DNA of 64,000 nt, taken from assembly GCF_001412655.1 (NCBI RefSeq), contig NZ_CP012996.1:3596001-3660000 (forward strand). Direction: 5' to 3'. The stretch comes from Pedobacter sp. PACM 27299. Lineage in GTDB: Bacteria; Bacteroidota; Bacteroidia; Sphingobacteriales; Sphingobacteriaceae. The notes under the pieces were generated by a model. It was not told the DNA's origin, searched no databases, and saw nothing but the letters and a program-made list of their open reading frames with translations. Position numbers and translations under genes: made by a program. Numbering within the stretch: the first letter of the stretch is position 1; each line of letters begins with the position of its first letter. Positions 3,292 to 59,660 of the stretch are shown here, one piece after another.

Positions 3292-3345
3292 ATTTATAAT
3301 GATCCCCTCGATTGATTTAAGGGTGAAAGAAAATGAAATTTATTT

Positions 3346-36963: not shown

Positions 36964-37692
36964 TTAATCAGGCGCCGTACCATTTTTATAAAACTTCACA
37001 TCCCTCCATTGTACCACAGCTTTACCAGTTTTCATGGTCCCATAACATCCGTATTTCATATAATTGGTTGCACTTTCAGCATCTGGTTTTTCAAACTTCT
37101 TTTCTCCATCTATATAAACGATCATTTTACTCCCGGCATCTTCCTGCAAGTGGATCACATTGACATGAACTTCTTTATCGTACACCCCAGTAGCTAAAAC
37201 GAAGCTATTAGAGATTTTTAGTGTCCCGCCGTTCTCTGCAAATCCACGAATCATGAGTTGAGTTGCATTTTCTGAGGTGCTGCCAAAAATCTGCATCAGG
37301 CTTTCATCATTCAGCGGGGCATCAAATTTAAGGTAGCCAGAAAACTGCCTGCTTCCTGTACTATAATTATCCTCAATCCTGATTTCTGAGCGATTCGACT
37401 TTGTCGTTAAAATCTGGAATGTTTCTGTAAATGTGCTGTTGTCATAGCTGTAATCCGCACAGATCACTGGCGAACAAGCCGATTTGTAGGCTGTCCAGGC
37501 ATAAGTTTTCAAACCGACATCATCATCCAGATGAATCTTCTTGACTGGGGTGTATAGTGCCCAACCGCTACCCAAAAAATCGGTAGTTTCATTTACATCG
37601 ACAAGGGTATCTATCACATTTTTCTTGCTGCACGAGGTGCTCAAAGAAAGCGATAAAAGGAGCAGATAAATTAAATAATTTCGCTTCATCAT
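36964..37692 (-). CDS. Lipoprotein with polysaccharide-lyase-7-like (Alginate_lyase2) fold
   Basis: Surface or periplasmic lipoprotein of 242 residues; the lipobox is LSTSC with the acylated Cys at about 21. The rest resembles the beta-jelly-roll of PL7 and plant citrate-binding proteins: NRSEIRIEDNYSTGSRQFSG, then LMQIFGSTSENATQLMIRGF, MIVYIDGEKKFEKPD, YMKYGCYGTM and WRDVKFYK. PL7 enzymes cleave alginate using the R-S-E-(x)-R, Q-I and Y-x-K-(x)-G-x-Y blocks. Here RSEIR, QIFG and YMKYGCY are kept in recognisable form, so lyase or binding activity is possible. No alginate genes are adjacent. Confidence 0.75.
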   Translation of the reverse strand: MMKRNYLIYLLLLSLSLSTSCSKKNVIDTLVDVNETTDFLGSGWALYTPVKKIHLDDDVGLKTYAWTAYKSACSPVICADYSYDNSTFTETFQILTTKSNRSEIRIEDNYSTGSRQFSGYLKFDAPLNDESLMQIFGSTSENATQLMIRGFAENGGTLKISNSFVLATGVYDKEVHVNVIHLQEDAGSKMIVYIDGEKKFEKPDAESATNYMKYGCYGTMKTGKAVVQWRDVKFYKNGTAPD

Positions 37693-38414: not shown

Positions 38415-39320
38415 CTATTCTATTCCTTTAACATTCATTGCTAAGCTATAGATTGCCTGCCTTGCGGTAATGAATAGGACATTCTTATCTTTCCCAGAAA
38501 AACAGAGGTTACTCGGCTGATGGGGCAGCTTAATTGCAGCTATCTTTTGTCCTTTGGCATTAAAAATTAACACTCCAGCTCCTGTTGTCAAGTAAATATT
38601 GCCTTTTTCGTCCAATGTCATTCCATCAGAACCATATTCCATCATCAACTTTTTGCCAGCCAAATCACCATTTTTTTCAATGGAATACCGATAGGTTTTA
38701 TTTGCTCCAATATCTGCGATGTATAAATATTTTCCATCCGGAGTTCCTACAATACCATTTGGTCTAACCATTCCAGCAGCCACACGTCTAGCCTGTTTTA
38801 CTCCTTTGGGAAGGTAATAAACGTCGTTACTACTTAAATCAGTCGCGGTTCTTGTCCAATAGTCGCGCTTATAAAGAGGATCCGTAAAATAGATCCCTCC
38901 TTTGGCATTGATCCAAAGGTCATTTGGACCATTAAGCTGCTTACCTTCGAAATCTGCCAATAACACTTTTATTTTTCCAGAGGGATTGATTGCCCAAAGT
39001 TCTCCTTTAGCATCAGCACAAACGACAAGATTTCCTTTTGAATCAAAATAAGTGCCGTTGGCTCTGCCAGATTGGTCCAGAAATACTGACAATAATCCTT
39101 CCCTACTGTATTTCCAGATTTTATCATTTGGCTGATCTGTAAAGAAAACATCTCCCTGCTGGTTTGGAGAACAGCCTTCTGTAAAACTAAAATCACTAGC
39201 TATTAATTTGAGTTCATCTTGTTTAAAAAGTCCTGCGGTAGCCGTATCCGGCTCCTGAGCAGCTAGAGTACCCGCACAAAAAAATAAAAGAATAACTAAA
39301 TTGAGTTTAATCGAATTCAT
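38415..39320 (-). CDS. SMP-30/gluconolactonase/LRE family protein
   Basis: Six-bladed beta-propeller lactonase-like protein of 301 residues with a signal peptide (MNSIKLNLVILLFFCAGTLA). Conserved blocks are FTEGCSPNQQGDVFFTDQPN (with the metal Glu), NGPNDLWINAKGGIYFTDPL (metal Asn), and VRPNGIVGTPDGKYLYIADI (metal Asn), then YGSDGMTLDEKGNIYL (metal Asp). All four calcium/zinc ligands of the family look present. Likely to open a sugar lactone in the periplasm. It is the last gene of the utilisation locus behind GH2, which suggests an oxidised sugar product. Confidence 0.9.
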   Translation of the reverse strand: MNSIKLNLVILLFFCAGTLAAQEPDTATAGLFKQDELKLIASDFSFTEGCSPNQQGDVFFTDQPNDKIWKYSREGLLSVFLDQSGRANGTYFDSKGNLVVCADAKGELWAINPSGKIKVLLADFEGKQLNGPNDLWINAKGGIYFTDPLYKRDYWTRTATDLSSNDVYYLPKGVKQARRVAAGMVRPNGIVGTPDGKYLYIADIGANKTYRYSIEKNGDLAGKKLMMEYGSDGMTLDEKGNIYLTTGAGVLIFNAKGQKIAAIKLPHQPSNLCFSGKDKNVLFITARQAIYSLAMNVKGIE

Positions 39321-39375: not shown

Positions 39376-42063
39376 TTAATTTAGTTTTCTCAGGGATAAA
39401 GCATTCAAAACAGGCTCACCTTTTACTGGAATGAAATCCAATGAAATTCCAGTTCCATCAATAACCTGTATCCTTATGCTCTTTTGAACAGCAGTAGTGT
39501 ATCCATATTCATCCTGAATATTAAAATCTTTGAGCAATGTTTTACCGTTAACGTTCAAATTAAATATCCTTTGTTCCGCCTGATCCTTAACTTCAGAATT
39601 ATCCAGATTATAGGCCAGCGCTTCTTGGTATTCCCCTCCCATCAGCTCAGAAAAATACAGGTTTAGCTCGTAATATCCATCGGGAACATCCAATTTATAG
39701 GCCGATAAGCCGACACGCTGGGTTTGATAAATTGGATCTTCATCGGTGCCAAGGATATTTTTGTCTGAACCATAGCTAATTCGATTGTTTCCGCTGCTAA
39801 AAGCAGTGCCTCCCATATAGCCCCATGAACCTTTATGATAAGCTTGATCCGGAGACCATAGCACATGCGTTTTTTCTTCTATAAAATAACGTTCAGCGCC
39901 TAATAAAACATGCAGAGCATTGAAGTCTGGTTGTTTTGAAAAAAGGTTTGGTAAAATGGTAAAGTCAATTTCAGCCACATCAATGAGCGATGGATATTGT
40001 GCGTTTAACACTTTCAGTTGATTCTTTCCTGCAGTAAAAGGCACATCCCAGGTACAAATACGGTCGATACTTTCCCTGATCCCCAGGCTCTTTCCATTCA
40101 AAAACAACTCCGCCGACTTCAAATTTGTAGCCACTTGAACTGGCTGGGTACTATATAGCGGATCATTTTCGGCAATGCCTGTCCTTTCTTTCCAATTTCT
40201 TGAGGCTATTTTCAGGAAGGGCTGTTTTAACAGATAAGCCTGATACAGATAGTAAGTATCTTTAGGCTCACGTCCAAGGGTTAACAGCCCTTTATTATTA
40301 ATATGAGGCATAGTCTCTGCTCTACTTTCGGAGTTAAAATCTGCCAGGTTCCAAACCATTGCACCATTTACAAATGGGCGGCTCAACATTTCATTTAAAT
40401 ACACCTGACTAAATTTAATCGCGTACTCCACACTTTTATCAAACCTAACTGGCTTAAAAGACCTGATCCTTGGATCAGCGTCCGCTCCGAATTCTGTCAC
40501 CAGTAATGGTTTCTCTGGCAATTCCTTGTGGTGTTTGTCTAAAAACTGTCCGAAACCATCCAAGGTTCCTCCATACCAGCCCTGGTATAAATTCCAGCCG
40601 ATAACCATGGGGATTTTTGTGAGTCCGACCCTATGGTACCGATCGAAATCACCATGTAAGGCCATCATCGTATATCTGGAACTGTCCTCTTTTCGGGTTA
40701 ATTTTTCAAGATCCTCAGCGAGTGCTCTGATGTTTTTAAAATACAATTCCTGACGAGGTTTATCATCTCCAAACTTCGGTCGCAGCAATACTTCATTCAT
40801 ATAGGCCCACATCACCACACTGGGGTGATTAAAATTCTGACGAATCATTTCGATCTGCATATTCTTGCTGTTTTCAGCAAAGGCTTCACTCTCCGTGATG
40901 GCATTTACGATCGGAATTTCTACGGAGGTCAAGATTCCAAGTCGATCACAGGTTTCCAATATAATTGGGTCTTGAGGATAGTGTGCAACCCTCAGGAAAT
41001 TACCGCCCATTTCTTTTAGTAGTTCTACATCCCTGATTTGCAAAGCATCTGGAACAGCATTTCCTAATCCTTCATAGTCTTGATGGCGACTAGCTCCCAT
41101 GATTTTCAGCGCCTTTCCGTTTAAGAAAAATCCTTTCTCTGCATCAAACCTGAACCACCTGAAACCAATTGCATTAGAGACTTCATCAAGCACTTTTGAA
41201 CTCTTGACATCGGTAATGCTTGAGACTACACGATACAAAACAGGCGAATCCGGAGACCATAATTCTGGTTTATTTACCTTCGGCAAATCCAGCTGTACCG
41301 TTTTCTTTTCTCCGGCATTTAAACGAATAAGAGCAGTTCGTTTACTGATTAACAGCCCCTCCTTATTGTACAATGCAGTACTTAATTCTAACTTGCGACT
41401 TTCGCTTGCGGAGTTCTCTAAAACACTCTTTACACTTACAGCCGCACATTCGGCAGATACCTGGGGCGTACTGATGTAAATCCCATCGGCGCCATACGCT
41501 CCATTATAAAAATGAACCGGATCTGTCATCAGCAAACCTACTTTTCTATAAATCCCACCAAAAAAAGTGAAATCCGCGGTTAGCGGAGCGATGTCTTCCT
41601 GGTAACGATTACTCACTTTAACCCTGATCTGGTTATCGAAACCGATGTTAGGGTTTAGAAATTTATGGATTGGAATGATAAAACGGGTATAGCCTCCTGC
41701 ATGTTTCCCGGCAAGCTGTCCGTTTACATAGAGTTCTGCCTCCTGATTTACGCCATCAAAACAAAGAAAAACATCTTTGCCTTTCATCATCGCATTGGTT
41801 TTCAAAACGCGCTGATACCATCCTGTTCCGCGATAATAACCAGGTGTATCCTCCATCACATCCTCGGCGTTCCAGGTATGCGGCAAGGTAATTTTGCTCC
41901 AGTTCTGATCGTCTTTACTAAAACTCCATTGGTCGTTAAAACCAATGTATTGTCGACCAGGGTTACGATTTATGTCTTTTATGTCTTTTGAAAAAGAGGA
42001 ATCAGCAAAAAGAATCAATAATATAAAAAGGTATAAGAGCTTAAAAGAAGGCATAAACGGCAT
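39376..42063 (-). CDS. Glycoside hydrolase family 2 with C-terminal malectin-like region
   Basis: Exported exo-glycosidase of 895 residues. Domains: signal peptide, sugar-binding jelly-roll (about 30-190), Ig-like (about 195-310), TIM barrel (about 315-610), then additional domains including a malectin-like sandwich (about 735-890; DGYYELNLYFSELMGGEYQE). The acid/base is E424 (WAYMNEVLL) and the nucleophile is E524 (LVTEFGADAD). GH2 covers beta-galactosidases, beta-glucuronidases and beta-mannosidases; the lactonase neighbour might favour a uronic or oxidised product, but this is unproven. It follows SusD after a hairpin at 42117-42144. Confidence 0.95.
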   Translation of the reverse strand: MPFMPSFKLLYLFILLILFADSSFSKDIKDINRNPGRQYIGFNDQWSFSKDDQNWSKITLPHTWNAEDVMEDTPGYYRGTGWYQRVLKTNAMMKGKDVFLCFDGVNQEAELYVNGQLAGKHAGGYTRFIIPIHKFLNPNIGFDNQIRVKVSNRYQEDIAPLTADFTFFGGIYRKVGLLMTDPVHFYNGAYGADGIYISTPQVSAECAAVSVKSVLENSASESRKLELSTALYNKEGLLISKRTALIRLNAGEKKTVQLDLPKVNKPELWSPDSPVLYRVVSSITDVKSSKVLDEVSNAIGFRWFRFDAEKGFFLNGKALKIMGASRHQDYEGLGNAVPDALQIRDVELLKEMGGNFLRVAHYPQDPIILETCDRLGILTSVEIPIVNAITESEAFAENSKNMQIEMIRQNFNHPSVVMWAYMNEVLLRPKFGDDKPRQELYFKNIRALAEDLEKLTRKEDSSRYTMMALHGDFDRYHRVGLTKIPMVIGWNLYQGWYGGTLDGFGQFLDKHHKELPEKPLLVTEFGADADPRIRSFKPVRFDKSVEYAIKFSQVYLNEMLSRPFVNGAMVWNLADFNSESRAETMPHINNKGLLTLGREPKDTYYLYQAYLLKQPFLKIASRNWKERTGIAENDPLYSTQPVQVATNLKSAELFLNGKSLGIRESIDRICTWDVPFTAGKNQLKVLNAQYPSLIDVAEIDFTILPNLFSKQPDFNALHVLLGAERYFIEEKTHVLWSPDQAYHKGSWGYMGGTAFSSGNNRISYGSDKNILGTDEDPIYQTQRVGLSAYKLDVPDGYYELNLYFSELMGGEYQEALAYNLDNSEVKDQAEQRIFNLNVNGKTLLKDFNIQDEYGYTTAVQKSIRIQVIDGTGISLDFIPVKGEPVLNALSLRKLN

Positions 42064-42150: not shown

Positions 42151-44025
42151 TTATTTATCCAATGCAGGCACGTTGGATTCATACCCGATATAACCTTTAT
42201 TTTGGTTGATGTGTCCTTCGGTATTAAATCTTTGTGCACTTGCAGGCACTGGCCACAGCACGTGATATGGTGCTATTCTGTAATTTACACCTTGAAGCGT
42301 TCTTACATTATTCTTATAGAAGTCATTCTTTTCCATAATACGGTCATAGAAGAAATTCTGATCAGAAAAAGCATTCAGGTTATAAGTCTTGCCATTGTAG
42401 GCAGATTTGCCAGTCATTGCAAAAATATAAGCAATCCTGGTCAGTTCAGTCTTTCTTGGTTCTTCCCAAAATAGTTCTCTGGCACGTTCGTCCAGGATGG
42501 TTCCAATATTGATTTTGCTGATGTCTGTTAATAGTGTCGCGTTTGCTCTTGCCCTAACCACATTGATATCACTCATTGCTGAGGCCAAATCGCCTTTCCA
42601 ATAATAAGCTTCTGCTCTTAACAAATAGGTTTCAGCTAATCTGAATACATACCAATCGGTATTGGTACCACGTGGTGGAGACCAGTAAGGATCGTTGGCC
42701 AAGGCATTTGTGGAGTTGATGAACACCTTGTAATGCGGCCATCCAAACCAATGACGAATTGTATCTAAAGCTCCATTTTGGAAAACGGTTGCCACATTCG
42801 CATCTGTATATTGCTGTAATGGTTTTCCAAATAGATCTTTATCGGCTTGTAGTTTTGATGTTTTTAGTGCAGGATTATTGTAAACCAGATCGGTCATATC
42901 CATCCACATCCCTTTTGCGTGTCTGTAATCCGTTTGATCGGTCCAGATGTATTTTGTACTGTATGGCGTACCTCGGTACCTGCCAATTCCACGGCCATAC
43001 ATCTTCGTTAAAGGGATTTCAGCACCCACGGCATCGGTAATCGCCTGGATTCCTGAACCCGTTGGTGTACGCAGGTTTGCAAAATGCCATGCTGGTACCG
43101 TATTACGCATCAGCTGCGATCCATTTGGGGTAAAGCCTTGGAACGCTTCCCTATCGATCACTAAAAACAGGGCTTCTTTATTGGCGCCGATTGCTTTATT
43201 GTCCATTCGGTGTAAGTCCCAAACTACGTTTTTAGTGGCATCGCCGGCAGTACTGCCAAATCTGGTGGTCATCATTCCATATTTGCCCCCGCCAATTACA
43301 TTGGTTGCAGAAACGATCGCATCATCAAATTTACCGAGTGCCAGGTTTACTTTTGTCAGCAAATGGCTCACAGCACCTTTGGTTACTTCTCCTTTATTGA
43401 CATTGTCGGTTACCCAGGTTTGCGCAAATTCTAAGTCAGTTCTCATTTTCTCCAGAATCACTTCTCTTTTTGTGGAATAAAAATCTGCTTTTGGTGCATC
43501 CAAGTCGTTCAATAACAAGGGCACGTCTCCAAATTGATGTACCAATCTGTAATAATAATAGGCACGGAAGAAATACGCGGCACCTAAAATAGCATTTCTT
43601 TCTGCATCAGAAGCATATTTAGGTACATCAATTCTGGTGATGATGGTATTTGCCTGACGAATAGCCGTGAAAGAATTCTCCCAATACCAGCCTACTTTAT
43701 TAAAATCGTCGCTATTTAAGTTGGCATCCGGTGTGATTCTGCTCACCAAATCCTGCGCTGGTGTACTTTTATCGGTTGTACCATCTACGGCTACATCAGA
43801 GAAAAGGGATTCGGTTAACATTGGGGCAGAATCGCCGAAATACTCTTTTCTGAGGATGAGTGCTACACCATTCAGTGCGGCTTTCATGGCATTCGGATTG
43901 TCCAGGTTGTTTGGTGAATAACTGGACAGCTGATCTGAATCCAAGTAACTTTTTTTACATGCAGTATCTGCCATTAATAATGCTGCAGTACATAACAGGA
44001 ATAGTGTTTTATTTATTTTTTTCAT
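42151..44025 (-). CDS. SusD/RagB family glycan-binding lipoprotein
   Basis: Surface lipoprotein of 624 residues that caps the SusC barrel and holds the incoming oligosaccharide. The lipobox is MADTAC (Cys about 23), followed by the helical TPR-rich part (ARAYYYYRLVHQFGDVPLLL-type stretch near 155-175) and the C-terminal end NTEGHINQNKGYIG. The AYYFRAYYYYRLVHQFGDVP block is a strong SusD mark. Its gene lies 12 bases behind susC and defines the pair. Confidence 0.96.
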   Translation of the reverse strand: MKKINKTLFLLCTAALLMADTACKKSYLDSDQLSSYSPNNLDNPNAMKAALNGVALILRKEYFGDSAPMLTESLFSDVAVDGTTDKSTPAQDLVSRITPDANLNSDDFNKVGWYWENSFTAIRQANTIITRIDVPKYASDAERNAILGAAYFFRAYYYYRLVHQFGDVPLLLNDLDAPKADFYSTKREVILEKMRTDLEFAQTWVTDNVNKGEVTKGAVSHLLTKVNLALGKFDDAIVSATNVIGGGKYGMMTTRFGSTAGDATKNVVWDLHRMDNKAIGANKEALFLVIDREAFQGFTPNGSQLMRNTVPAWHFANLRTPTGSGIQAITDAVGAEIPLTKMYGRGIGRYRGTPYSTKYIWTDQTDYRHAKGMWMDMTDLVYNNPALKTSKLQADKDLFGKPLQQYTDANVATVFQNGALDTIRHWFGWPHYKVFINSTNALANDPYWSPPRGTNTDWYVFRLAETYLLRAEAYYWKGDLASAMSDINVVRARANATLLTDISKINIGTILDERARELFWEEPRKTELTRIAYIFAMTGKSAYNGKTYNLNAFSDQNFFYDRIMEKNDFYKNNVRTLQGVNYRIAPYHVLWPVPASAQRFNTEGHINQNKGYIGYESNVPALDK

Positions 44026-44037: not shown

Positions 44038-47000
44038 TTATAAGGAAACATTTAAGCCCAGGGTGTAATATCTTGGAGTTGGACCATTGTTCTCCGGATC
44101 CCAGTAATTCCAATCGCGGGTATATACTGCTGCGTTATTTACGTTGGCATATATTTTTGCGGTTTTCACACGAAGTTTAGTCAGCAGATTTTTAGGAATC
44201 GTATACGCTAATGCCACTGAATTTAAACGGATAAATGAGTTGTCGTGAAAAACGTTGAAACTGGTACCACTTGTTCCTGAATTTAACCTGGCATAGTCAT
44301 TAATTGGGTTATCTGGTGTCCAGTACGGCAGCACATAAGAATTTTGACGTGCAAATCCCACACTTCCAGGTTGATTTTTCGCAGAGTTATATTCATTTTT
44401 CTGTCCCCAGTTAGAAAGCAGCTGGAAAGAGAAGTCGAAATTGTCGAAGATATTGAATTCATTCCTTAGTGCGAAGATAAAGCGAGGGCTTTTATAGCCT
44501 AAAAACTGTTTATCTGCATCACTGTACTGATAATCTCCATTGACATCTTCTAACTTGAAATCACCTGGTTTAATCGCCCCTTTTGTATACTTGGCAGCCT
44601 CAGCCATTTCATTCTCCTGCCATACTCCAAGGATTTTATAGTTCCAGATCACATCAATATCTTTTCCAATAAACCAGCCATTTCCTGGATCATCAGTTGG
44701 CAATGCCAGACTTATGATTTTATTCCTTGAAAACGAGAAATTGAAATTTGAATTCCATTTAATTTTACCATCGGTAATGTTTCTACTGGTTAAACTGAGG
44801 TCCATTCCTTTATTGCTAATTTCAGCAACATTAGAATACACATAAGCATAGCCCGTCACATTTGGCAGGGTTTGTTTCACTAGTAAATTATTGGTTTTTT
44901 TACTGAAGAAATCAACAGCTCCAGTGATTCTATCTTTCAAAACGGAGAAATCCAATCCTAAGTTGAATGATTTCGTTTGCTCCCATTGCAGGTTTGGATT
45001 CTGCATCTTAGAGGCAAGGGCCAACGTATTTACGGTTGAAGCGGTACCACTTCCATCTACAGTCTGGTATTTATCACTCCCTAAGATGGCCAAAGCCGCG
45101 TAAGGATCAACCGTATTATTGTCTGGGTTTCTCAGGTCTCTATTTCCATTGATACCATAAGAAACACGCAGTTTACCGAAGTCTAGCCAGGTCAAGGACT
45201 TCAAAAAGGATTCTTCTGTAAAAATCCAGGCAAAAGCTGCTGCGGGGAAGGTTGCTCTTTTAAAATTAGCACCAAAAACAGAATATCCATCTCTGCGAAC
45301 AGAAAGCGTCAGGTTATATCGCTGCATCAGGCTATAATTTAACCTGGCCATTAGCGCATCACCTGTATACACTTTATCTTCTGCATTTACGGAAGGCTTG
45401 ATACCAGTAGAAAGATTATGATAGCCTAAGGCATCACTTGGCACAAAGCCTTCGTTCCCTGCCTGAGTCCACCAGGTTTGGTATTTCTCTGCATTTGCCA
45501 ATAGGGTCACATCAAGATTATGAATGTCTGCAATGGTTTTATTCCATTTTAGTAAATGATCAATTTGCCAGTTGTAACGGGTCTCATTGGCTCTGGTTAC
45601 AGAACCACCTGGAGTAGTTACATTTGGATTTTTTGAAGATAAGTGATCAAATGTCCGGTACATATCTACACCTGGGCTGAAGTTTAGCTGGTAGGTAATA
45701 CCGAAAGGCAATTTAATCCTGGTGTAAACGCTTGCAAACAGGGTATTTTGCTTGTTCATCTTGCTATTATAGGTCATATTCAAGAAAGGATTTCTTGCAT
45801 TCAAACCATTGTCATCTGTAGGAATCCGTCTTAGCGTTCCATCTAGATTGTACATATCACCATAAGGCGAAAGGTTGATCAACTGATTCCAATCGGCTTC
45901 AATAGCACCTTCATCGCGATCTGCATATTGTGCGTTGATTCCGATGGTCATAAATTTTGCAGCCTGGCCTTCCAGATTTAATCGCGCTCTGACGGTACTA
46001 AATGCACCTCCTTTGATTAGGTTTTCATTTTTCTGATAACCCAGAGACATGTAATAACTGATTTCATCTTTCTTCCCACTCATACTCAAGGTATGGTCCT
46101 GACGTAATCCAGTTCTAAAAATTTCATCGTACCAGTCTACCGTTTTACCATCGGCATAATTGGCTTTCTCATTTGCAACCAGTCCTAACCTACCCAGCCA
46201 TACCCCTACAAGGTCTGTTGGAACGGGATCTGTAGGTTTAAGGTTTAGCCACTGGTCTAAGCTTACTCCAGCGGGAAGGTTTCTTGGGTCGTTATACAAA
46301 TATGGAGCTGTGGCACCTCCACTTCTCATTACATCTCCTCTCCAGGCTAAAAAAGCTTCTCCGGTATACGGACGCATATTTTGAGCCAGTTGGGCTAATC
46401 CGACATTGGTATTAAAGGTGATGGTAGGTTGATCTCCACGACCTTTTTTAGTGGTAATTGCCACTACTCCCGTAGCTGCTTTTGCCCCATAAACTGCCAG
46501 GGAACTTGCATCTTTCAGTACATCTACGGTTTCAATATCATTTGGATTGATATCAGAAAGCTGACCGTTGTAAATCACTCCATCCAATACAATTAGTGGT
46601 GAACTTCCAGCTGTTAATGTTGATTTACCACGTACGAGTAAGTCTCCTCCACCTTTTGCACTGGTGTTTAAACTGACAGACATACCAGCAATGTTACCTT
46701 TTAGAATGTCGGCCACACTCTGTGGATTTTCATTTTCCAGCTGAGTTGCCTTTATGCTGGAAATTGCTCCGGTAGCATCTTTTTTGGTGGTAGTTCCGTA
46801 TCCGATCACGACCACTTCCGATAAACCCTGAGCTTCTTCAACCAGATTAACATTGATCTGAGTACGGTTATTCACGGAAACTTCTGAGGTGGTATAGCCA
46901 ATAGCTGAGTACTGGAGTATCGCATTTCCCGCAGCAGCGATGCTGTATTTACCCTCCTCATTGGTAGAGCTTCCGGTTTTTGTGTTTTTGATTTTAATGG

Positions 47001-47124
47001 ATACCCCCGGCATTGGTGATCCTTCTTTGTCCTTTACTATTCCGGTCACAGTACGGTCCTGTGCAAAGGACAATACATAGCTAGCTAGAAAGAACACAAT
47101 TAATAGTGTAATTCTTTTTCTCAT
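44038..47124 (-). CDS. SusC/RagA TonB-dependent outer-membrane receptor
   Basis: Outer-membrane importer of 1028 residues, full length. Signal peptide 1-21 (ends SFAQ), carboxypeptidase-regulatory-like domain (about 24-100; TGIVKDKEGSPMPGVSIKIK), plug (about 110-230; VVVIGYGTTTKKDATGAISS and LIVLDGVIYNGQLSDINPND), and the 22-strand barrel to the C-terminus (YYTLGLNVSL). There is no STN domain, unlike the receptor at the left edge, so regulation must come by another route than FecR. The nearest candidate regulator is the 7TMR-DISM fusion protein upstream. Confidence 0.97.
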   Translation of the reverse strand: MRKRITLLIVFFLASYVLSFAQDRTVTGIVKDKEGSPMPGVSIKIKNTKTGSSTNEEGKYSIAAAGNAILQYSAIGYTTSEVSVNNRTQINVNLVEEAQGLSEVVVIGYGTTTKKDATGAISSIKATQLENENPQSVADILKGNIAGMSVSLNTSAKGGGDLLVRGKSTLTAGSSPLIVLDGVIYNGQLSDINPNDIETVDVLKDASSLAVYGAKAATGVVAITTKKGRGDQPTITFNTNVGLAQLAQNMRPYTGEAFLAWRGDVMRSGGATAPYLYNDPRNLPAGVSLDQWLNLKPTDPVPTDLVGVWLGRLGLVANEKANYADGKTVDWYDEIFRTGLRQDHTLSMSGKKDEISYYMSLGYQKNENLIKGGAFSTVRARLNLEGQAAKFMTIGINAQYADRDEGAIEADWNQLINLSPYGDMYNLDGTLRRIPTDDNGLNARNPFLNMTYNSKMNKQNTLFASVYTRIKLPFGITYQLNFSPGVDMYRTFDHLSSKNPNVTTPGGSVTRANETRYNWQIDHLLKWNKTIADIHNLDVTLLANAEKYQTWWTQAGNEGFVPSDALGYHNLSTGIKPSVNAEDKVYTGDALMARLNYSLMQRYNLTLSVRRDGYSVFGANFKRATFPAAAFAWIFTEESFLKSLTWLDFGKLRVSYGINGNRDLRNPDNNTVDPYAALAILGSDKYQTVDGSGTASTVNTLALASKMQNPNLQWEQTKSFNLGLDFSVLKDRITGAVDFFSKKTNNLLVKQTLPNVTGYAYVYSNVAEISNKGMDLSLTSRNITDGKIKWNSNFNFSFSRNKIISLALPTDDPGNGWFIGKDIDVIWNYKILGVWQENEMAEAAKYTKGAIKPGDFKLEDVNGDYQYSDADKQFLGYKSPRFIFALRNEFNIFDNFDFSFQLLSNWGQKNEYNSAKNQPGSVGFARQNSYVLPYWTPDNPINDYARLNSGTSGTSFNVFHDNSFIRLNSVALAYTIPKNLLTKLRVKTAKIYANVNNAAVYTRDWNYWDPENNGPTPRYYTLGLNVSL

Positions 47125-47427
47125 TTTTTGCTTGGTTAGGTTTATAATGGTTCGATAAAACTAGACTAACAAAAGCAAAACAGCAAACAAAAAACAACAC
47201 AACTATCTGTAAAACAATAAGTTAAACATAAACGTGATACGGTTAAAACTCAAAGAATAAATCACATTTCTGCTGATTATCATACGGTTAGGCCATATCC
47301 TAAAATACAGCCTGATACGCTAAAAAAACATTAAAAAAAATACAAGAAAAATTAGCTTTGGGTGCTTCTACGCGGTTTTTTGTGCTAAAAATCGGCGTAG
47401 AAGTAGAGAATATTACTATCTGGAGAG
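47125..47427. promoter_or_regulatory. Upstream region of the utilisation locus with repeated sites
   Basis: This 303-base gap holds a repeated element on the plus-strand reading: GATACGGTTAA (47236-47246), CATACGGTTAG (47281-47291) and GATACGCTAAA (47314-47324), with starts 45 and 33 bases apart. A hairpin just after the receptor gene has arms CTTCTACGC (47365-47373) and GCGTAGAAG (47395-47403). A weak -7 box, TAGTTTTA on the minus strand, lies at about 47157-47164. Confidence 0.5.
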
Positions 47428-49311
47428 CTAGGCGGTTGGTTTTTCGGCGAATGATGCCGTCTCAAAAATCAATTTACTCCAGCCACCTTCCCCGGCATTC
47501 TTCAATTCTTTATTCTTTTCTTCCAGGAGTCTCTGCATTTTACTGTTATAAGCCCAGCAAGTACTCTGCCTGATCAATAACAGTTGAGACAGTTTATGGG
47601 AGGAGATTTTGCCTTTTGTAGAGTATACAAGAAAAAGCATATAGAATGCTTTATTGATGGGGATCCTACTATTTTGAAAGATGGTATTGGCAATGACCGA
47701 CTCATCGTACCCACATTTTGTACACCTCCTGCTGAAAGGCAGGAAACCTGCAAGGTATTGGCTGTTGCTGCACCTCTTACAGGTATAGCCATTGGTCCAT
47801 TTTAATTCCGAAAGGTATTTAAAACAGGTTTCTCTGTCTGGATAGATTTTGCTGAACTCTTCAAAGTCTACGTCCAGGGACATCACCCTGGCCCGACTCA
47901 CTTTTTTGATATTTTCATGCAGTTCCTGATTGTCTTTCTCCAGCATGGCATTCATGAGAGAAATTTCTTCATTCTGTTTCTCAATGGTTGCGGCCTTTTG
48001 GCTCACTTCCTTAGTCCGCTCGTCGACAAGGCTGGTTAGCTCTTTATTCAGCGTTTCTTTTAACTTCTCATTGATCTGAAGCTGCTCGATCATTCTTTTC
48101 TGAGCTCTGTCCTTTTTTTGTCTTAAACCCCTGATATTATCACCAATTGCAAAGGATACCAGAATCATTTCTATCACAAAGCAGAAACTTAAGCTGTAAT
48201 GGGTAATCGGACCATAGGGTAACCAGGAAACGTTCAGCAGGACTAAACCCTTTATGATAAAGCCCAATAGCAGGAAAGTATAGCCAATCACAAAGAATCT
48301 GGCTGGTTTAAAACCACTTTTCCATACATAGATCCCAGAACCTAATGCCAGTAATAAGGGAATCACTTCTACTAACTTATAAGTAAACCAATGATGATTG
48401 TATAAACAGAGCATGAAAAACAATGTCCTGAGTATAATCATGGCTATAATGGCTTTATATAACATTGGCGCTTTGCTCCTTAAATACAAGAAGTTCAAGG
48501 TAAAAAGCAATCCAAACAAACTACTTAAATATAAGGCGACTCCATAGCCATATTGGTTCCAGGCCGGATGATTTGGCCATAAATATTGAAATGCAATTCC
48601 ATCTACACAGGTTTCGTACAGCCCGATACTCAGGTTATAAAGCACATAATATAAATATTGTTTTTGCCTGATGGCGATAAACATTAGCAGGTTATAGAAA
48701 CCAAAAACAACGATCATCCCATAAAAAAGGCCGAAAAACATATATTCTTCAGTGGCATAATGAACAAACCAGCGCATGGTTCTCAATACAATGATCACAC
48801 TGGCTGACTGTGAAGATTTTACCCTGATGTAATAGGTTTCCTCTCCTTCTTTGGTGTTATCCAGGTTCAGCAGAAAGTTTTTATGCTCATATTCTCGATG
48901 CGCAAACCTATATTTTGCTCCAAATTGAAAATGCTGGTATTTATGATCAGTAATTGGTGCATATAAATTAATATCATCAATCGTTTGGTCGAAGAATTCA
49001 AGTATCCAATCCTCTTTAGACGCTGGATTAGACTTGATTTTTACCTTAAACCAGTAGGTAGCGTTGAGTTTGAAAATCTTTGGGGTGTAGATTTTGCTTT
49101 TATTGAACTGTTTATTCAATTCTGGTTTTAGGATGTCCTGAAGACTGAGTATTCCGGAAGTATCTTCCAGGAGCTCAATTTCCCCATAATTAAAGATATG
49201 ATGAGGCACTTTATCATCCATCTTCACTGGGAGCTGAGCTTTAGTATTGAGCTGTAAAAAATTCAGGATAGCAAAAGTAAACAGGAAAATAAGGCGGTAA
49301 AATTTCATCAT
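47428..49311 (-). CDS. 7TMR-DISM receptor fused to an IS1595-type transposase zinc-ribbon domain
   Basis: Membrane receptor of 627 residues. Order: signal peptide (1-25), extracellular 7TMR-DISM-type jelly-roll (about 40-180, with FKLNATYWFKVKIKSN), seven membrane segments (about 190-395), a long coiled coil (about 396-475), and a C-terminal domain (about 482-600). That last domain has four zinc cysteines, C511, C514, C530 and C533 (CX2C-X15-CX2C), preceded by the entry helix DRETCFKYLSELKWTNGYTC and followed by ANTIFQNSRIPINKAFYMLF and KGKISSHKLSQLL. This matches the N-terminal DNA-binding part (Zn_Tnp_IS1595) of IS1595/ISXO2-family transposases; the DDE domain is missing. There is no kinase or cyclase. 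It lies upstream of susC on the same strand and may act as a one-component regulator. Confidence 0.88.
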   Translation of the reverse strand: MMKFYRLIFLFTFAILNFLQLNTKAQLPVKMDDKVPHHIFNYGEIELLEDTSGILSLQDILKPELNKQFNKSKIYTPKIFKLNATYWFKVKIKSNPASKEDWILEFFDQTIDDINLYAPITDHKYQHFQFGAKYRFAHREYEHKNFLLNLDNTKEGEETYYIRVKSSQSASVIIVLRTMRWFVHYATEEYMFFGLFYGMIVVFGFYNLLMFIAIRQKQYLYYVLYNLSIGLYETCVDGIAFQYLWPNHPAWNQYGYGVALYLSSLFGLLFTLNFLYLRSKAPMLYKAIIAMIILRTLFFMLCLYNHHWFTYKLVEVIPLLLALGSGIYVWKSGFKPARFFVIGYTFLLLGFIIKGLVLLNVSWLPYGPITHYSLSFCFVIEMILVSFAIGDNIRGLRQKKDRAQKRMIEQLQINEKLKETLNKELTSLVDERTKEVSQKAATIEKQNEEISLMNAMLEKDNQELHENIKKVSRARVMSLDVDFEEFSKIYPDRETCFKYLSELKWTNGYTCKRCSNSQYLAGFLPFSRRCTKCGYDESVIANTIFQNSRIPINKAFYMLFLVYSTKGKISSHKLSQLLLIRQSTCWAYNSKMQRLLEEKNKELKNAGEGGWSKLIFETASFAEKPTA

Positions 49312-51177: not shown

Positions 51178-53676
51178 TTATTTCACTTCAATTTTTAGGA
51201 CCGTAGACTTCAACCCCTTTGCAGAGGCCTCAAAGTAAACCACTCCCTGCTTTTCCTCAGACTTCACAATAGCTGTCAGCTGACCACTAAAAGCTTTCAT
51301 TTTTGGCGCCTGAAAAGATTCCAGACTCGCACTGTTTCCATTCGCTACAGCATGAAATTTTCCAGCTCCAGTGGCTTTAAAGCTGATCTCTCTGGTATCT
51401 TCAGAACATAGATTCCCATCTTTATCTACCACACTGACCAATACAAAAGAAAGATCCTTTCCATTTGCAGTCAATTGTGTACGATCAGCTTTCAATTCCA
51501 GGTGATGTGGTTTTCCAGCAGTATGGATCTCTTTTTCTTCTACTGCATTTCCCTTTGCATCATACGCAACCACCTTAACCGCTCCCGGTTTATATTTAGT
51601 ATCCATCCACATTAAACGGTATCTTTTCTGACGGTCAAAATCCTCCAAAGATTTCTTATCTCCGGTATTGTAAACCGTAAACGTCGTATCCTTTGTTTTC
51701 TTCCCCTGACTTTTACCATTGATAAACAATTCGGCAGTAGGATAATTGGTATACACAAAAACTGGTGTAGTTTGCCCTGCTCTATCTCTAAAATTCCAGC
51801 TTGGAAGGATATGAAGTGTGTTTGCGGCAGTATTCCAATGACTTCTATACAGGTAATAGCGGTCTTTGGGAATTCCTGCAAGGTCTACAATTCCAAATAA
51901 TGAGCTATGACTTGGCCAGTTGGTATAATATGGCGTTGGTTCGCCTAAGTAATCAAAACCGGTCCACACAAATTCGCCGATGGCATAAGGCAGGTCATCA
52001 TGCTGAATAAAATTATCTTCTGGCAAGTCAGACCAGCCGCAATGTTCTACATCATAAGATGACACCTGAAGATCCTCATAGATTGGCATAGCACGTCTGA
52101 TTACAGGGAATTTATAAATTCCTCTTGAGCTAATTGTAGAGGCCGTTTCTGTGCCGAGAATAATCTGCTGCGGCAGTTTTTTATAAGCTTCAGGATAGAC
52201 AAAAGGACGATAATTGAAACCTGCGACCTGCATAGTTGCTGCAAAATTATTGTTAATCACAGATCCTGGCTGATCCATTCCCTGTGTGACAAAGCGCGTA
52301 GGATCTTCCCGGAAACAGATGTCCTGAAGAAACTTTGCCGTTTTAGCGGCTCCCAGCATCCCTTGTTCAGGAACTTCATTTCCTATACACCACATCACTA
52401 CACTTGGATTATTTCTATAATGATGGATCAAATTGACCACATCTTTTTCCGCCCATTCCTCAAAATACTTATGGTAACCATTCTTTTGTTTTGGTGCTTT
52501 CCATTCGTCAAAAGTTTCGGCCATCAGCATCATGCCCATTTCATCACAAGCTTTCACAAACTCTGGTGCCGGCATATTATGAGAAGTCCGGATCGCATTT
52601 ACGCCCATATCTTTCATAATGCGAATCTGCCTTCTGATAGCCGCATCATTCACAGCCGCGCCTAATGGACCCAAATCATGGTGTAAACATACTCCTTTAA
52701 ACTGCGTCCTTTTTCCATTCAGAAAAAACCCTTTATTGGGAATAATTTCTATCGATCGGATTCCAAAAGTAGTGCTGTACTCATCTCGAAGTTCATTTTC
52801 CTCGTACAATTTAGAAACTGCGGTGTATAAAACCGGGTGTTCCGTATCCCAAAGTTGCGGATTCAAGACCAGCAGTTCCTGATTAAAAGTATCCTCATTG
52901 TATTTATTTAATAAGGTCTTCGTGCTGGCTACGACCTTCCCATCCGCATCTTTGATTTCGGTTGTCAAATGGAATCCAGCCACATTCCCTGCTCCAGTTA
53001 TCACCTTTGTTTTCAAGTTCACCTTCGCAAACTCCTTATGAATGACCGGTGTAGTCAACTGTGTTCCCCAAACTGGAATGTGTGCCGTTTCAGTCATCAC
53101 CACATGAACATTTCGGTATAAACCGGCCCCGGGGTACCATCTGGATGATTCCGGAAAGTTCTCCAACCTTACAGCTAATATATTTTCTTCCCCAGGCTCT
53201 AAAAATTCAGTAATATCAAAATGAAAAGTATTGTAACCATACGGCCAGAAGCCTACCTTTTTACCGTTTAAGTAAACGGTGGCGTTGCTCATTGCACCAT
53301 CAAAGATAATCGAAGCCTTTTTACCTTTATTAAATCCAGGCACCCTAAATTTATTCCGGTACCAGCCTACGCCAACAAATGGCAAGCCGCCCGTCCTCCC
53401 CGCATGTTCAGACGCTTCCTTCTGCCCATCTTGTGAGATCGCGACATGCTGTTTGTCATTATTAGCACTAAAAGGGCCATAAATAGCCCAGTCATGAGGA
53501 ACGATAACATTTTGCCATTTACTATCATTATATTTAACGTTCGTGAATTCAGGCTCATCTGTTCTCGTAAACTTCCAATTTTTTTCAAGTAACCATTCGG
53601 ACCTGCTCTGAGCAAATACTGCAGTACTCCAAAAACCTAACGACAGTAAAATAACAGCAAAGTAATTCTTTTTCAT
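51178..53676 (-). CDS. Glycoside hydrolase family 2, beta-galactosidase-like with DUF4982
   Basis: Exported exo-glycosidase of 832 residues. Signal peptide (ends VFAQ), sugar-binding domain (about 25-195; NWKFTRTDEPEFTNVKYNDS and VPHDWAIYGPF), Ig-like domain, TIM barrel (about 310-620; KGVCLHHDLGPLGAAVNDAA), DUF4982 (about 645-710) and a C-terminal Ig-like domain (about 725-832; KADRTQLTANGKDLSFVLVS). The acid/base is E434 (IGNEVPEQG) and the nucleophile is E510 (LGTETAST). The HHDLG motif and DUF4982 are typical of Bacteroidota beta-galactosidases. It stands alone, with a GAF gene and a kinase gene on either side. Confidence 0.95.
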   Translation of the reverse strand: MKKNYFAVILLSLGFWSTAVFAQSRSEWLLEKNWKFTRTDEPEFTNVKYNDSKWQNVIVPHDWAIYGPFSANNDKQHVAISQDGQKEASEHAGRTGGLPFVGVGWYRNKFRVPGFNKGKKASIIFDGAMSNATVYLNGKKVGFWPYGYNTFHFDITEFLEPGEENILAVRLENFPESSRWYPGAGLYRNVHVVMTETAHIPVWGTQLTTPVIHKEFAKVNLKTKVITGAGNVAGFHLTTEIKDADGKVVASTKTLLNKYNEDTFNQELLVLNPQLWDTEHPVLYTAVSKLYEENELRDEYSTTFGIRSIEIIPNKGFFLNGKRTQFKGVCLHHDLGPLGAAVNDAAIRRQIRIMKDMGVNAIRTSHNMPAPEFVKACDEMGMMLMAETFDEWKAPKQKNGYHKYFEEWAEKDVVNLIHHYRNNPSVVMWCIGNEVPEQGMLGAAKTAKFLQDICFREDPTRFVTQGMDQPGSVINNNFAATMQVAGFNYRPFVYPEAYKKLPQQIILGTETASTISSRGIYKFPVIRRAMPIYEDLQVSSYDVEHCGWSDLPEDNFIQHDDLPYAIGEFVWTGFDYLGEPTPYYTNWPSHSSLFGIVDLAGIPKDRYYLYRSHWNTAANTLHILPSWNFRDRAGQTTPVFVYTNYPTAELFINGKSQGKKTKDTTFTVYNTGDKKSLEDFDRQKRYRLMWMDTKYKPGAVKVVAYDAKGNAVEEKEIHTAGKPHHLELKADRTQLTANGKDLSFVLVSVVDKDGNLCSEDTREISFKATGAGKFHAVANGNSASLESFQAPKMKAFSGQLTAIVKSEEKQGVVYFEASAKGLKSTVLKIEVK

Positions 53677-53966: not shown

Positions 53967-56576
53967 ATGAACTCTGAAAACGATCTAAAACACTTTAATG
54001 CGCTTATAGAAGCCTACCCTACTGCTACAGCCATTTATTCCGACAGGAACATTACCATAGCAGCTGCAAACCAAGAAATGCTTGCCCTATGGGGGAAAAA
54101 TAATTCCGTTATAGGAAAAGAAATGGCAGCCGCTATTCCCGAACTGATCAACCAACCATTTATCAACTTACTGCAACAAGTTTACGATACAGGAATCACC
54201 TATCATGGAGAACAGGAAGCCGCCGACCTTATTGTAGACGGACAGCTGAAAACTTCTTATTTCAATTTCACCTATAAAGCATTAAAGGATGAACATGGAA
54301 AAACTGTGGCAATTATCCACAATGCAATCGACGTTACAGAGCTTGTACTGACAAAGAAAAAAATCAGCGAAACTGAAGAACGCCTGAGTTTCGCCCTGGA
54401 ATCGGCAGAAATTGGCACCTGGGAAATGAACCCTTTAAATGAAACTGTTTTTTGGGACCAAAGGTGCCGGGAAATCTTCGGATTTGATGGTCATGAGGAA
54501 ATCGAATATAAGTCTGTACTCCACTGTATTCATCCTCTGGACAAACAGAAAGTAGCCATGGCAGTAGCAGCTGCTATTGATCCGAATCGCACAGAAACTT
54601 ACGATTTACGCTATCGAACAGTGAGTCAATCCAATAAAACCCTTAGATGGGTTCACTGTAAGGGGAAAGCGTACTTCGACGATCGCGGAGCAGTTTATCG
54701 CTTTGCTGGAATAGCCATGGACATCACCAAAGAAATTACTGCCAACCTCAGTGAACAACAGCTACTTTCTTTAATCAGGCACAATGCAGATCATATGTCT
54801 ATAGCAGATATGGAAGGCAGGCTCATTTATATGAACCAATCCGGCAGAAAAATGCTGGGCGTTCCTGAAAATGCAGATATCACCACCATGACAGCATCCG
54901 ATTTCTACACCCCTGAAGAATTAGCCCGGGTACAGCAAACTTTAATCCCACAAATTTCTGAGGAAAGTGGTTGGCAAGGGGTCATCCACCTAAGAAACTA
55001 CCAAAACAAACAGGAAATTCCATGCGATGTGAATTATATTCTCATCAAAGATCCATTTTCGGGAGCCACTATTGGAAGAGGCGCTACCGCAAGGGACTTA
55101 CGACCGGAAATCAAAGCGAAAGCAGAACTGAAACGCCTGGCAACAATCGTAGATATCTCTGAAGATTTCTGTAATTATTGCGACCTCGATGGCAATACCA
55201 TTTATATCAATGAAGCCGGGGGTAAATTAATCGGTATCGACCCAAAACATATCAATGGAGCAAACTTGTACCAGTACCATAGTGCTGCTTCCTCAGCGGA
55301 AATCCGAGATAGGATCATTCCAGAACTCTATACCCATGGAAAATGGTCAGGACGATTAGAACTGGTGCATCAGGTTACCGGAGAAATCATTCCTATTCAT
55401 AAACAACTATTCATCATCCGTCAGGAGTTCAGCAACGAACCTGTGGCCATTGCCGGAATCGCCCGGGACATGAGAAGAGAATTGAATGCAAAAAAAGCAG
55501 TAGACAAGAAAACAGAAGAGTTACAGCAAGCCATTAAGGAAATGGAATTTTTAGCAAATACAGTTCCTGCAGTAGTGTGGACGAGCCATCCTGATGGAAT
55601 GCTGGACTATATCAATGACCGCTGGCACGAAAGAAGCGACGTCAGTATCGCCGAATCGCTTGGTCAGGGCTGGATCAAAGTGATGCACCCCGATGATGTA
55701 AAAGGAGTAATACAAAGATGGAAATTAAGTGTCGATAGCGGCAACCCTTATCAAACGGAATTCCGAATGCTGGACAAACATGGTAATTATAGATGGTGGC
55801 TCGTTAGGGCATTAGCGCTAAAAGATGCCAATGATAAAATCATTAAATGGTACGGCACCAACACGGACATTACCGATCAAAAAGAACTGGAAAGACAAAA
55901 GGATAACTTCCTTGCTGTAGCCAGTCATGAGTTAAAAACCCCTGTAACCAGTATTAAAGCGTATGCTCAGGTATTGGAAATGATGTTAAATCGTGCAGGG
56001 GATACTAAAAATGCAGTGTTAATGTCAAAAATGGATGGGCAAATCAACAGATTAACCAGTTTAATTGGAGATCTGCTGGATGTTACAAAAATCAATTCTG
56101 GCAGACTGGAATTTGACAATGTACCCTTTGATTTTAACCAAATGATGCTGGAAATTATTGAAGATATGCAGCTCACTTCCGGCAGGCATCAAATTAAACA
56201 CCAGCTTTCTTTTAAAAGAATGGTAACCGGAGATCGGGAAAGAATCGCACAAGTTGTGATTAACCTGATCACCAATGCGATAAAATATTCTCCTAATGCC
56301 GACCGGATCATCATCTACACCGAAGATCACGATACCGAAGTTCAATTGTGCGTACAGGATTTTGGTATCGGACTAACCAGAGATAAGATGGATCGTGTAT
56401 TTGAACAGTTTTATCGGGTGAGCGGGACTAAAGAACATACGTTTCCAGGGCTTGGGCTCGGTCTCTACATTTCTTCAGAAATTATTAAACAACTTGGCGG
56501 AAAGATATGGGTAAACTCTGTAATTGAAAAGGGTTCCACTTTTTGCTTTGCTATTCCTTTAAATAACGGCAATTAA
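53967..56576 (+). CDS. Soluble hybrid-free sensor histidine kinase with five PAS domains
   Basis: Histidine kinase of 869 residues with no membrane segment. Five PAS domains lie in a row at about 10-130, 140-255, 265-375, 385-500 and 520-640 (for example NADHMSIADMEGRLIYMNQS and VPAVVWTSHPDGMLDYINDR). The HisKA phosphoacceptor is H654 in AVASHELKTPVTSIKAYAQV. The ATPase has the N box VVINLITNAIKYSPNADRII and the G box FPGLGLGLYISSEIIKQLGG. The response regulator gene starts 14 bases after the stop, so they form a pair. Signals are probably internal (redox, small ligands), as there is no sensor outside the cell. Confidence 0.96.
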   Translation: MNSENDLKHFNALIEAYPTATAIYSDRNITIAAANQEMLALWGKNNSVIGKEMAAAIPELINQPFINLLQQVYDTGITYHGEQEAADLIVDGQLKTSYFNFTYKALKDEHGKTVAIIHNAIDVTELVLTKKKISETEERLSFALESAEIGTWEMNPLNETVFWDQRCREIFGFDGHEEIEYKSVLHCIHPLDKQKVAMAVAAAIDPNRTETYDLRYRTVSQSNKTLRWVHCKGKAYFDDRGAVYRFAGIAMDITKEITANLSEQQLLSLIRHNADHMSIADMEGRLIYMNQSGRKMLGVPENADITTMTASDFYTPEELARVQQTLIPQISEESGWQGVIHLRNYQNKQEIPCDVNYILIKDPFSGATIGRGATARDLRPEIKAKAELKRLATIVDISEDFCNYCDLDGNTIYINEAGGKLIGIDPKHINGANLYQYHSAASSAEIRDRIIPELYTHGKWSGRLELVHQVTGEIIPIHKQLFIIRQEFSNEPVAIAGIARDMRRELNAKKAVDKKTEELQQAIKEMEFLANTVPAVVWTSHPDGMLDYINDRWHERSDVSIAESLGQGWIKVMHPDDVKGVIQRWKLSVDSGNPYQTEFRMLDKHGNYRWWLVRALALKDANDKIIKWYGTNTDITDQKELERQKDNFLAVASHELKTPVTSIKAYAQVLEMMLNRAGDTKNAVLMSKMDGQINRLTSLIGDLLDVTKINSGRLEFDNVPFDFNQMMLEIIEDMQLTSGRHQIKHQLSFKRMVTGDRERIAQVVINLITNAIKYSPNADRIIIYTEDHDTEVQLCVQDFGIGLTRDKMDRVFEQFYRVSGTKEHTFPGLGLGLYISSEIIKQLGGKIWVNSVIEKGSTFCFAIPLNNGN

Positions 56577-56590: not shown

Positions 56591-56947
56591 ATGAAAAAGA
56601 TATTTATAGCAGATGATGATGCCGCAATTGTTGATGCAACCAGCTTAATGCTGGAGTTAATGGGTTATGATGTGGCCTCTACTTTAAATGGTGCTGCCAT
56701 ATTAGAAGCGATGAAACCCAGTCCAGATCTTTTAATTCTTGATATCTGGCTTTCAGGTATCGATGGCAGGGACGTATGCAGACAGCTGAAAGCCGATCCG
56801 GCCACTAAAAACATACCGATTCTCATGATTTCTGCTAGCAGAGAGATCAAAACATCTGCAATGGATAGCGGAGCCAATGATTTTCTGGCAAAACCTTTCG
56901 AAATGCAGCTGCTGCTTCAGAAAATTGAAAGTTTAATCAATACATAA
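56591..56947 (+). CDS. Single-domain response regulator
   Basis: Receiver protein of 118 residues with the acidic pair in FIADDDAAIVD, the phosphoacceptor D51 in LLILDIWLSGIDGRDVCRQL, the switch Ser in ILMISASREI, and the lysine in DFLAKPFEMQLLLQKI. No output domain is attached, so it passes phosphate onward or acts by protein contact. It is cotranscribed with the kinase. Confidence 0.96.
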   Translation: MKKIFIADDDAAIVDATSLMLELMGYDVASTLNGAAILEAMKPSPDLLILDIWLSGIDGRDVCRQLKADPATKNIPILMISASREIKTSAMDSGANDFLAKPFEMQLLLQKIESLINT

Positions 56948-59659: not shown

Positions 59660-59660
59660 A

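Follow-up and report, generated by a model that had tools for sequence, protein, structure and literature searches.

The subject of this article is a gene in a stretch of 64,000 nucleotides from the genome of Pedobacter sp. PACM 27299 (contig NZ_CP012996.1, positions 3,596,001 to 3,660,000 of the forward strand), referred to below as the window. The gene encodes a protein of the inner membrane, here named REG, that combines a sensor with a DNA-binding-type domain resembling that of IS1595-family transposases. In the order of minus-strand transcription, the locus consists of a glycoside hydrolase (GH) gene of family GH2, REG, a gap of 303 base pairs (bp), susC, susD, a second GH2 gene and then genes of gluconolactonase-like and Alginate_lyase2 proteins (Table 1). 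The plus strand over the REG gene contains many stop codons, and the REG frame is on the minus strand. A prediction made earlier from the sequence alone (the original prediction) had placed REG directly upstream of susC on the same strand; this stands for the window, with the correction that both genes are on the minus strand, but it does not hold as a general rule because the neighbour of REG is not always susC. The susC gene, the presumed target, starts 303 bp downstream of REG, and in Pfam and NCBIfam its product matches Plug, CarboxypepD_reg and barrel models but not STN.

Table 1. Features of the REG locus and other regulators in the window (window positions)
Feature	Position	Strand	Basis
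REG, membrane-bound sensor with putative transposase-derived DNA-binding domain, 627 amino acids (aa)	47428..49311	minus	
7TMR-DISMED2 periplasmic sensor domain, beta-sandwich, residues 44-176	48784..49182	minus	Pfam, model match to RetS
7TMR-DISM_7TM, seven membrane helices, residues 189-391	48139..48747	minus	Pfam, AlphaFold2 helices
Long helix, presumed coiled coil, continuing the last membrane helix, residues 392-478	47878..48138	minus	AlphaFold2
IS1595-type zinc ribbon (C511, C514, C530, C533) and helix-turn-helix (HTH) with RQSTCW (581-586), residues 480-600	47512..47874	minus	
Candidate operator, distal site GTTTTTTTAGCGTATCA	47313..47329	minus	
Further core copy ATGGCCTAACCGTATGA, overlapping palindrome-like TGATAATCA at 47274-47282	47280..47296	minus	
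Candidate operator, proximal site GAGTTTTAACCGTATCA, 78 bp from distal site	47235..47251	minus	
Cores GCGTATCA/CCGTATCA of the candidate operator sites	within 47235-47329		
Candidate -33 element, TTTG	47184..47187	minus	
Candidate -7 element, TAGTTTTA, one mismatch to TAnnTTTG, 80 bp after proximal core	47156..47163	minus	
susC (TonB-dependent outer membrane receptor), presumed target	44038..47124	minus	Pfam/NCBIfam
susD	42151..44025	minus	Pfam/NCBIfam
GH2 glycoside hydrolase with malectin domain	39376..42063	minus	Pfam
SMP-30/gluconolactonase-like protein	38415..39320	minus	
Alginate_lyase2-domain protein (PF08787, 32.1 bits, cut-off 29.7)	36964..37692	minus	
Further GH2 glycoside hydrolase, upstream of REG	51178..53676	minus	Pfam
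FecR/ECF sigma pair	2068-3291 and 3346-3939		Pfam
GntR/aminotransferase protein	6443-7921		Pfam
PAS histidine kinase	53967-56576	plus	Pfam
Receiver-only protein, partner of the PAS histidine kinase	56591-56947	plus	Pfam

The N-terminus of REG resembles a signal peptide, as judged by eye, and is followed by the domains 7TMR-DISMED2 (PF07696, E 8.7e-30) and 7TMR-DISM_7TM (PF07695, E 8.5e-48), both above the Pfam cut-off. The AlphaFold2 model of the full-length monomer (mean pLDDT, the predicted local distance difference test, of 77) consists of a periplasmic beta-sandwich, the membrane helices and a single helix at residues 373-471, with pLDDT <50 at residues 463-491. The extracellular 7TMR-DISM domain, seven membrane segments and long coiled coil of the original prediction are thus borne out by Pfam and by the modelled helix, the coiled coil being presumed. 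The best matches of the sensor model among solved structures are to the periplasmic domain of RetS (2xbz and 3jyb, Foldseek E of ~2e-6 to 3e-6), followed at E of at least 0.007 mostly by GH2 enzymes, with some carbohydrate-binding modules and unrelated folds; by profile search the sensor domain matches RetS with E of 0.05-0.08. Neither HisKA, HATPase, GGDEF, receiver and AraC-type HTH domains nor sigma or anti-sigma factors were found in REG with Pfam and NCBIfam at E up to 1. A sensor, membrane segments and a DNA-binding-type domain are combined in one chain without kinase or receiver, and the output module after the last 7TMR-DISM helix is a zinc ribbon-HTH in place of the usual enzymes. Homologues of REG are named in their sources as '7TM diverse intracellular signaling domain-containing protein', 'chromosome partitioning protein ParA' or 'sensor histidine kinase LadS'; Pfam and NCBIfam give no support for the names ParA or LadS histidine kinase in the window protein.

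The window protein alone matches transposase models weakly. Zn_ribbon_IS1595 (PF12760) is found at residues 493-535 with E 0.0011 and 19.3 bits, and the NCBIfam model transpos_IS1595 (NF033547) aligns positions 1-57 of its 215 with residues 547-602 at E 5e-4, short of its cut-off. Several other REG copies pass the PF12760 cut-off, including the second copy in the same genome (32.6 bits). A profile of the REG C-terminus, built from 117 family sequences with near-duplicates included (loci L005-L019 among them), aligns with IS1595 transposases in hhalign at 99.5 % and E 2.3e-22 over 118 columns, and matches all seven transposase open reading frames (ORFs; 26-75 bits, two of the matches partial) but none of 140 shuffled sequences. 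Because the family profile aligns over 118 columns and shuffles are not matched, we take the weak hits to reflect true homology to IS1595 transposases. Consequently, the IS1595/ISXO2-type zinc ribbon with its following helical part, for which the original prediction had proposed a PF12760 search, is recovered by the family profile, and the four cysteines are those named there. The alignment covers the zinc ribbon and the HTH and ends short of the catalytic domain, where REG too ends: the predicted lack of a DDE domain is confirmed, the chain stopping 27 aa past residue 600. An AlphaFold2 model of the C-terminal domain (27 sequences, mean pLDDT 85) has two short helices, the short strands of the zinc ribbon and further helices; compared with solved structures, it gives no significant match. 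The C..C/C..C pair is conserved in all 102 REG copies of the survey described below and the segment RQ[SGA]T[CS]W in 100 of them, and the fusion to 7TMR-DISM occurs in four families (labelled f1, f15, f25 and f29). These observations bear on the idea that REG arose recently when a transposase fragment was joined to a 7TMR-DISM gene by chance, and that it has no function. IS1595-type transposases are indeed present in these genomes, but in view of the conservation we reject such a fusion as extremely improbable. The conserved neighbourhoods of the REG loci also argue against mobility. A separate observation is a free-standing zinc ribbon-HTH protein of 137 aa (L234:1194-1607, G579:C69), without DDE domain and with a short, somewhat REG-like tail, which is possibly a soluble relative of REG.

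At E of 1e-70 or better, REG has matches in 179 of 400 genomes of the order and in 12 of its 22 genera, and at 1e-60 in 23 of 59 relatives; the C-terminal domain was verified in the fetched copies, and lower-scoring matches may differ in the zinc ribbon. Among 16 loci, the named carriers are Pedobacter and one Mucilaginibacter, and one distant match covers residues 29-419 only. The genome of the window has two REG copies, the second being 54 % identical and preceding a different susC/susD pair. We surveyed the neighbourhoods of 102 REG copies in 101 fetched regions (L049 and L072-L171), 100 of them hand-picked from the listed matches to spread over genera, using ORFs of at least 140 aa; L005-L019, which come from the same or nearly the same genomes as some of L072-L171, were excluded from neighbourhood and motif counts. 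The controls were 152 genes from 20 arbitrary regions at round coordinates in the same genome set, where glycan genes and genes at region ends were skipped as control genes.

The next gene is a same-strand susC for 52 of the 102 REG copies, compared to 2 of the 152 control genes. Other next genes are GH16 (9 copies), GH2 (7) and alginate lyase (3), and directly upstream on the same strand we find GH5 in 18 copies and polysaccharide lyase family 14 (PL14) in 5. A glycan gene is adjacent to 92 of 102 REG copies (control, 7 of 152) and within three genes of 100 (control, 21 of 152), where the enzyme labels were drawn from genes seen beside REG and hence favour REG, while the susC label is free of such circularity. 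The neighbourhood survey proposed with the original prediction thus places REG homologues near SusCD or glycan-degrading genes far more often than control genes. We rejected the notion that the target is always susC, given the GH16, GH2, alginate lyase, PL14 and other neighbours. Eight further copies come from other families (f15, f25 and f29); seven of them are followed directly by susC or a GH gene on their own strand, and in the remaining one, L258, two unlabelled genes precede susC, which is third. In a tree of 103 REG copies the type of neighbour tracks clades, with 17 changes compared to a shuffled mean of 48. The larger clade around the window REG (32 rows) contains SusC, PL14 and alginate-lyase loci, which, together with the Alginate_lyase2 gene of the window, hints weakly at a uronate-containing substrate.

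The gap that follows REG contains a candidate operator. When the post-REG gaps are aligned, the same element is found twice in unrelated loci, as direct repeats of consensus GnKnnTnAAGCGTATCA located 68-94 bp apart where paired. The gap set (n = 79, the window and 78 others) consists of the sequences from REG to the next same-strand gene; gaps <60 or >900 bp and those with the next gene on the opposite strand were omitted. The core A[GC]CGTAT occurs in these gaps 100 times in forward and 7 times in reverse orientation (dinucleotide shuffles: mean 3.2, maximum 10), at least once in 63 gaps and at least twice in 36. Conservation extends beyond the search seed: among 95 sites, not all independent, G is found at -8 in 95 %, A at -1 in 91 % and A or G at +8 in 99 %. 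A leave-one-out matrix, in whose training the relatives of the omitted locus remain, detects sites scoring 9 bits or more in 67 of the 79 gaps, with a second one in 58, compared to 6 on the reverse strand and 3 in shuffles. A matrix whose training set was these same gaps finds 76 pairs of intergenic sites, spaced by 60-100 bp, in 67 of the 101 whole regions, and all 76 point at same-strand genes (susC 50, GH16 12, REG 5, other glycan genes 9); the 20 arbitrary regions (398 kb) contain 25 sites, none of them paired. The five PL14 loci have two copies of the site ahead of the PL14 gene that precedes REG. The gap of the window (47125-47427), proposed earlier for binding assays, therefore contains a conserved repeated motif and, as described below, a promoter at a fixed distance from it.

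Several smaller observations concern the motif. A palindrome-like element CTGATnATCAG/TGATAATCA is located about midway between the direct repeats in many gaps (group 1: L049, L109, L111, L115, L122-L124 and others, as well as the window) and may be a third contact. A site pair is also present before a divergent GH5 gene in L147 and before a GH3 gene further along in L113 and L117; one REG may serve several promoters. Single sites occur at 18 places in the genome of the window (7 of them one identical sequence and 3 in the two REG gaps), compared to 11 for a control pattern, and are uninformative. The 17-mer GGTTACCAAGCGTATTG is found seven times in this genome (G000:C1), perhaps in rRNA operons, and is probably a chance match to the motif.

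TAnnTTTG at -7 and TTTG near -33 are reported to be the elements of the primary sigma factor of Bacteroidota (PMC7366714). In 34 of 63 gaps a TAnnTTT[AG] begins 79-81 bp beyond the proximal core (mean of shuffles 0.6, maximum 4); for the strict TAnnTTTG this is true of 24 gaps (mean of shuffles 0.2, maximum 2). TTG is present in the -33 window in all 34 gaps of the 79-81 bp class, compared to a background rate of 0.13. In 10 other gaps, 9 of them from one clade, the -7 element is found at 91 bp, one helical turn further. An activator would need such a near-constant helical phase ahead of the promoter. Looping repressors, too, typically have two spaced sites, and REG might instead hold both sites without glycan, perhaps looping the DNA, and release them on induction. 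We regard this as unlikely. Where the common geometry is found (34 gaps), the proximal core precedes the -7 element by ~70 bp and the -33 window by >40 bp and does not overlap the promoter, and the clustering of distances at 79-81 and 91 bp gives the near-constant phase seen in activators that touch RNA polymerase. It is this distance and phase of the proximal site that make a repressor less likely than an activator.

Comparison among families suggests a link between the recognition segment RQ.TCW of the HTH and the operator motif. Two sites (19.3 and 13.0 bits), separated by 90 bp, accompany the f25 copy, whose segment reads RQSTCW. In four newly fetched f15 copies this segment consists of other residues, and three of them have no site and one a single weak site (9.1 bits); L163, also of f15, has none. 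No alternative motif shared by the f15 copies was found by repeat scanning, the one approach used. A different explanation is that the motif belongs to another regulator and that REG signals by protein-protein contact through its zinc ribbon, since zinc ribbons can bind proteins. This would agree with the f15 copies, which keep the neighbourhood without the motif, and with the copies that have RQ.TCW and no motif. However, the f15 copies without the motif also have a different recognition segment, the REG module corresponds to the whole DNA-binding portion of a transposase, and arbitrary regions hold no pair. Furthermore, the two-site pattern has three matches in the 6.1-Mb genome of the window and two of them are the gaps after the two REG copies, which argues that the motif goes with REG rather than with a global regulator. 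We consider ownership of the motif by another regulator quite improbable.

A number of results weigh against the interpretation of REG as an activator acting through this motif. The PF12760 score of the window protein is below the gathering cut-off of 25.4, and the genes directly beside REG in L104, L106, L121 and L157 carry no glycan label. By number, the two-site pattern is not above control in the genome of the window (3 matches compared to 4 for the reversed pattern), and a stricter pattern gives a modest excess in 59 genomes (31 compared to 13); 14 of those 31 matches are within 2 kb of a REG gene, and it is the placement of the matches, not their number, that carries the argument. No site of at least 9 bits is found in 12 of the 79 gaps, and 11 of these 12 belong to copies that retain RQ.TCW. 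Likewise, 34 of the 101 regions have no site pair; they include REG copies that end GH30/GH5 operons, and the fetched stretch may not reach as far as the promoters of these operons. The -7 element is at neither 79-81 nor 91 bp in 19 of 63 gaps. Among the f29 copies (RQGTCW or RQATSW), two have one site each (12-14 bits), and one of the three keeps RQGTCW without a site. The f15 copies retain susC beside them in spite of having no motif, L171 has a site pair with RQNTCL, and the terminal repeats of three IS1595-type elements (L205, L237 and L242) do not contain CGTAT. The copies that retain the helix without a site weaken the case for an activator slightly.

On balance, sequence comparison makes it highly probable that REG is a membrane-bound one-component activator of the adjoining glycan locus that acts via a transposase-derived DNA-binding domain. 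The periplasmic domain, which is carbohydrate-binding-like, would detect a glycan breakdown product, and the signal would pass through the seven membrane helices and the long cytoplasmic helix to the zinc ribbon-HTH module. The module would bind the direct repeats of approximate sequence GnKnnTnAAGCGTATCA in the target promoter, where the proximal repeat occupies a fixed helix face upstream of a Bacteroidota -33/-7 promoter, and bound REG would promote transcription of susC or another lead gene.

A bolder version of the activator, which we regard as possible but doubtful, is that a membrane-anchored REG dimer, joined by the coiled coil, holds two direct repeats 68-94 bp apart in the way a transposase holds transposon ends, with the DNA bent into a membrane-tethered loop; glycan sensing would alter the complex and recruit RNA polymerase. 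If so, REG would represent a class of regulators of polysaccharide utilization loci (PULs) that have turned the synapsis of transposon ends into a promoter switch under signal control. Among 16 loci tried for terminal repeats, inverted repeats with 17-20 matches in 20 bases flank the IS1595-type elements L205, L237 and L242, one of 17 matches is present at L245, and the others gave none or weak, probably spurious ones. The idea that the operator resembles retained transposon ends has no support from these terminal repeats. This is a weak test. The transposase-like ORFs closest in sequence to the REG domain, nine in genome G581 (L231 and eight other places), were unusable for it: those compared share no flank with L231 outside the reading frame, and the usual catalytic stretch of L231 appears by eye to be missing; perhaps they are another domesticated set.

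REG can be compared with several known types of proteins. 7TMR-DISM receptors (PF07695/PF07696), such as RetS and LadS of Pseudomonas, have the same periplasmic and seven-helix domains but a kinase, cyclase or phosphatase output, whereas REG has a DNA-binding-type module and no HisKA, HATPase or GGDEF hit. IS1595/ISXO2 transposases have a zinc ribbon and HTH colinear with those of REG over 118 columns; REG differs in having no DDE domain, in being fused to a membrane sensor and in its conserved position beside chromosomal glycan genes. ToxR and CadC, too, are single polypeptides that comprise a sensor, an anchor in the membrane and a domain for DNA binding, but with one membrane helix and an N-terminal winged helix in place of the seven helices and C-terminal zinc ribbon-HTH of REG. 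ChiS, which regulates chitin use, gives its name to a further family. In PMC8092284 the ChiS-family domain is described as a cryptic HTH variant of proteobacteria, found at the C-terminus of sensory proteins proposed to be transcription factors, and one architecture includes 7TMR-DISM. Like REG, these are sensors with a C-terminal DNA-binding domain; the IS1595 zinc-ribbon type of module sets REG apart. The original prediction had listed kinases, cyclases or HTH modules as the outputs of 7TMR-DISM proteins, and this needs to be qualified in that PMC8092284 provides a proteobacterial precedent for direct DNA binding.

Dedicated regulators encoded beside glycan loci include hybrid two-component systems (HTCS), extracytoplasmic function (ECF) sigma/anti-sigma pairs and SusR, and most of what is known about control in non-gut Bacteroidota concerns HTCS, systems of the SusR type and ECF/anti-sigma pairs. 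Regulation of Bacteroidota PULs by HTCS and ECF systems is described in PMC10766802. REG is similar to these in being encoded beside the glycan locus; it differs in that none of their domain types (kinase, receiver, AraC-type HTH, sigma, anti-sigma) gives a hit in it, and the susC of the window has no STN hit. Among the papers listed in searches of mainly open-access literature, none connects 7TMR-DISM to SusC regulation or to the zinc ribbon of a transposase. As a general kind, membrane receptors that themselves bind DNA are known. Apparently new are the use of an output derived from a transposase, the association with PULs and the operator. The REG family, common in genomes of the order Sphingobacteriales and present in other families, would add a type of regulator for glycan loci, and its targets should be predictable since the sequence gives the regulator as well as the operator and the geometry of the promoter. 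It would also be an unusually complete example of how a membrane receptor can take its output module from the DNA-binding domain of a bacterial transposase. For proteins named '7TM diverse intracellular signaling domain-containing protein' or 'chromosome partitioning protein ParA', it suggests a function.

A Pfam scan of 36 ORFs of the window detected the other regulators listed in Table 1, none of which lies between REG and its susC. The original prediction was correct about the susC without an STN domain but not about the absence of FecR/ECF regulators, as a FecR/ECF pair is present at 2068-3939, ~40 kb off and far from the locus. An ORF near this pair that runs off the left window edge resembles the SusC-like proteins of other loci; together they probably form a second, conventionally regulated locus. 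In the region 58682-63140, genes for a histidine-specific methyltransferase (EgtD-like) and a DinB/FGE-sulfatase protein (EgtB-like) adjoin an OpuAC-permease fusion and an ABC ATPase, an arrangement that resembles ergothioneine synthesis by EgtB and EgtD next to a transporter.

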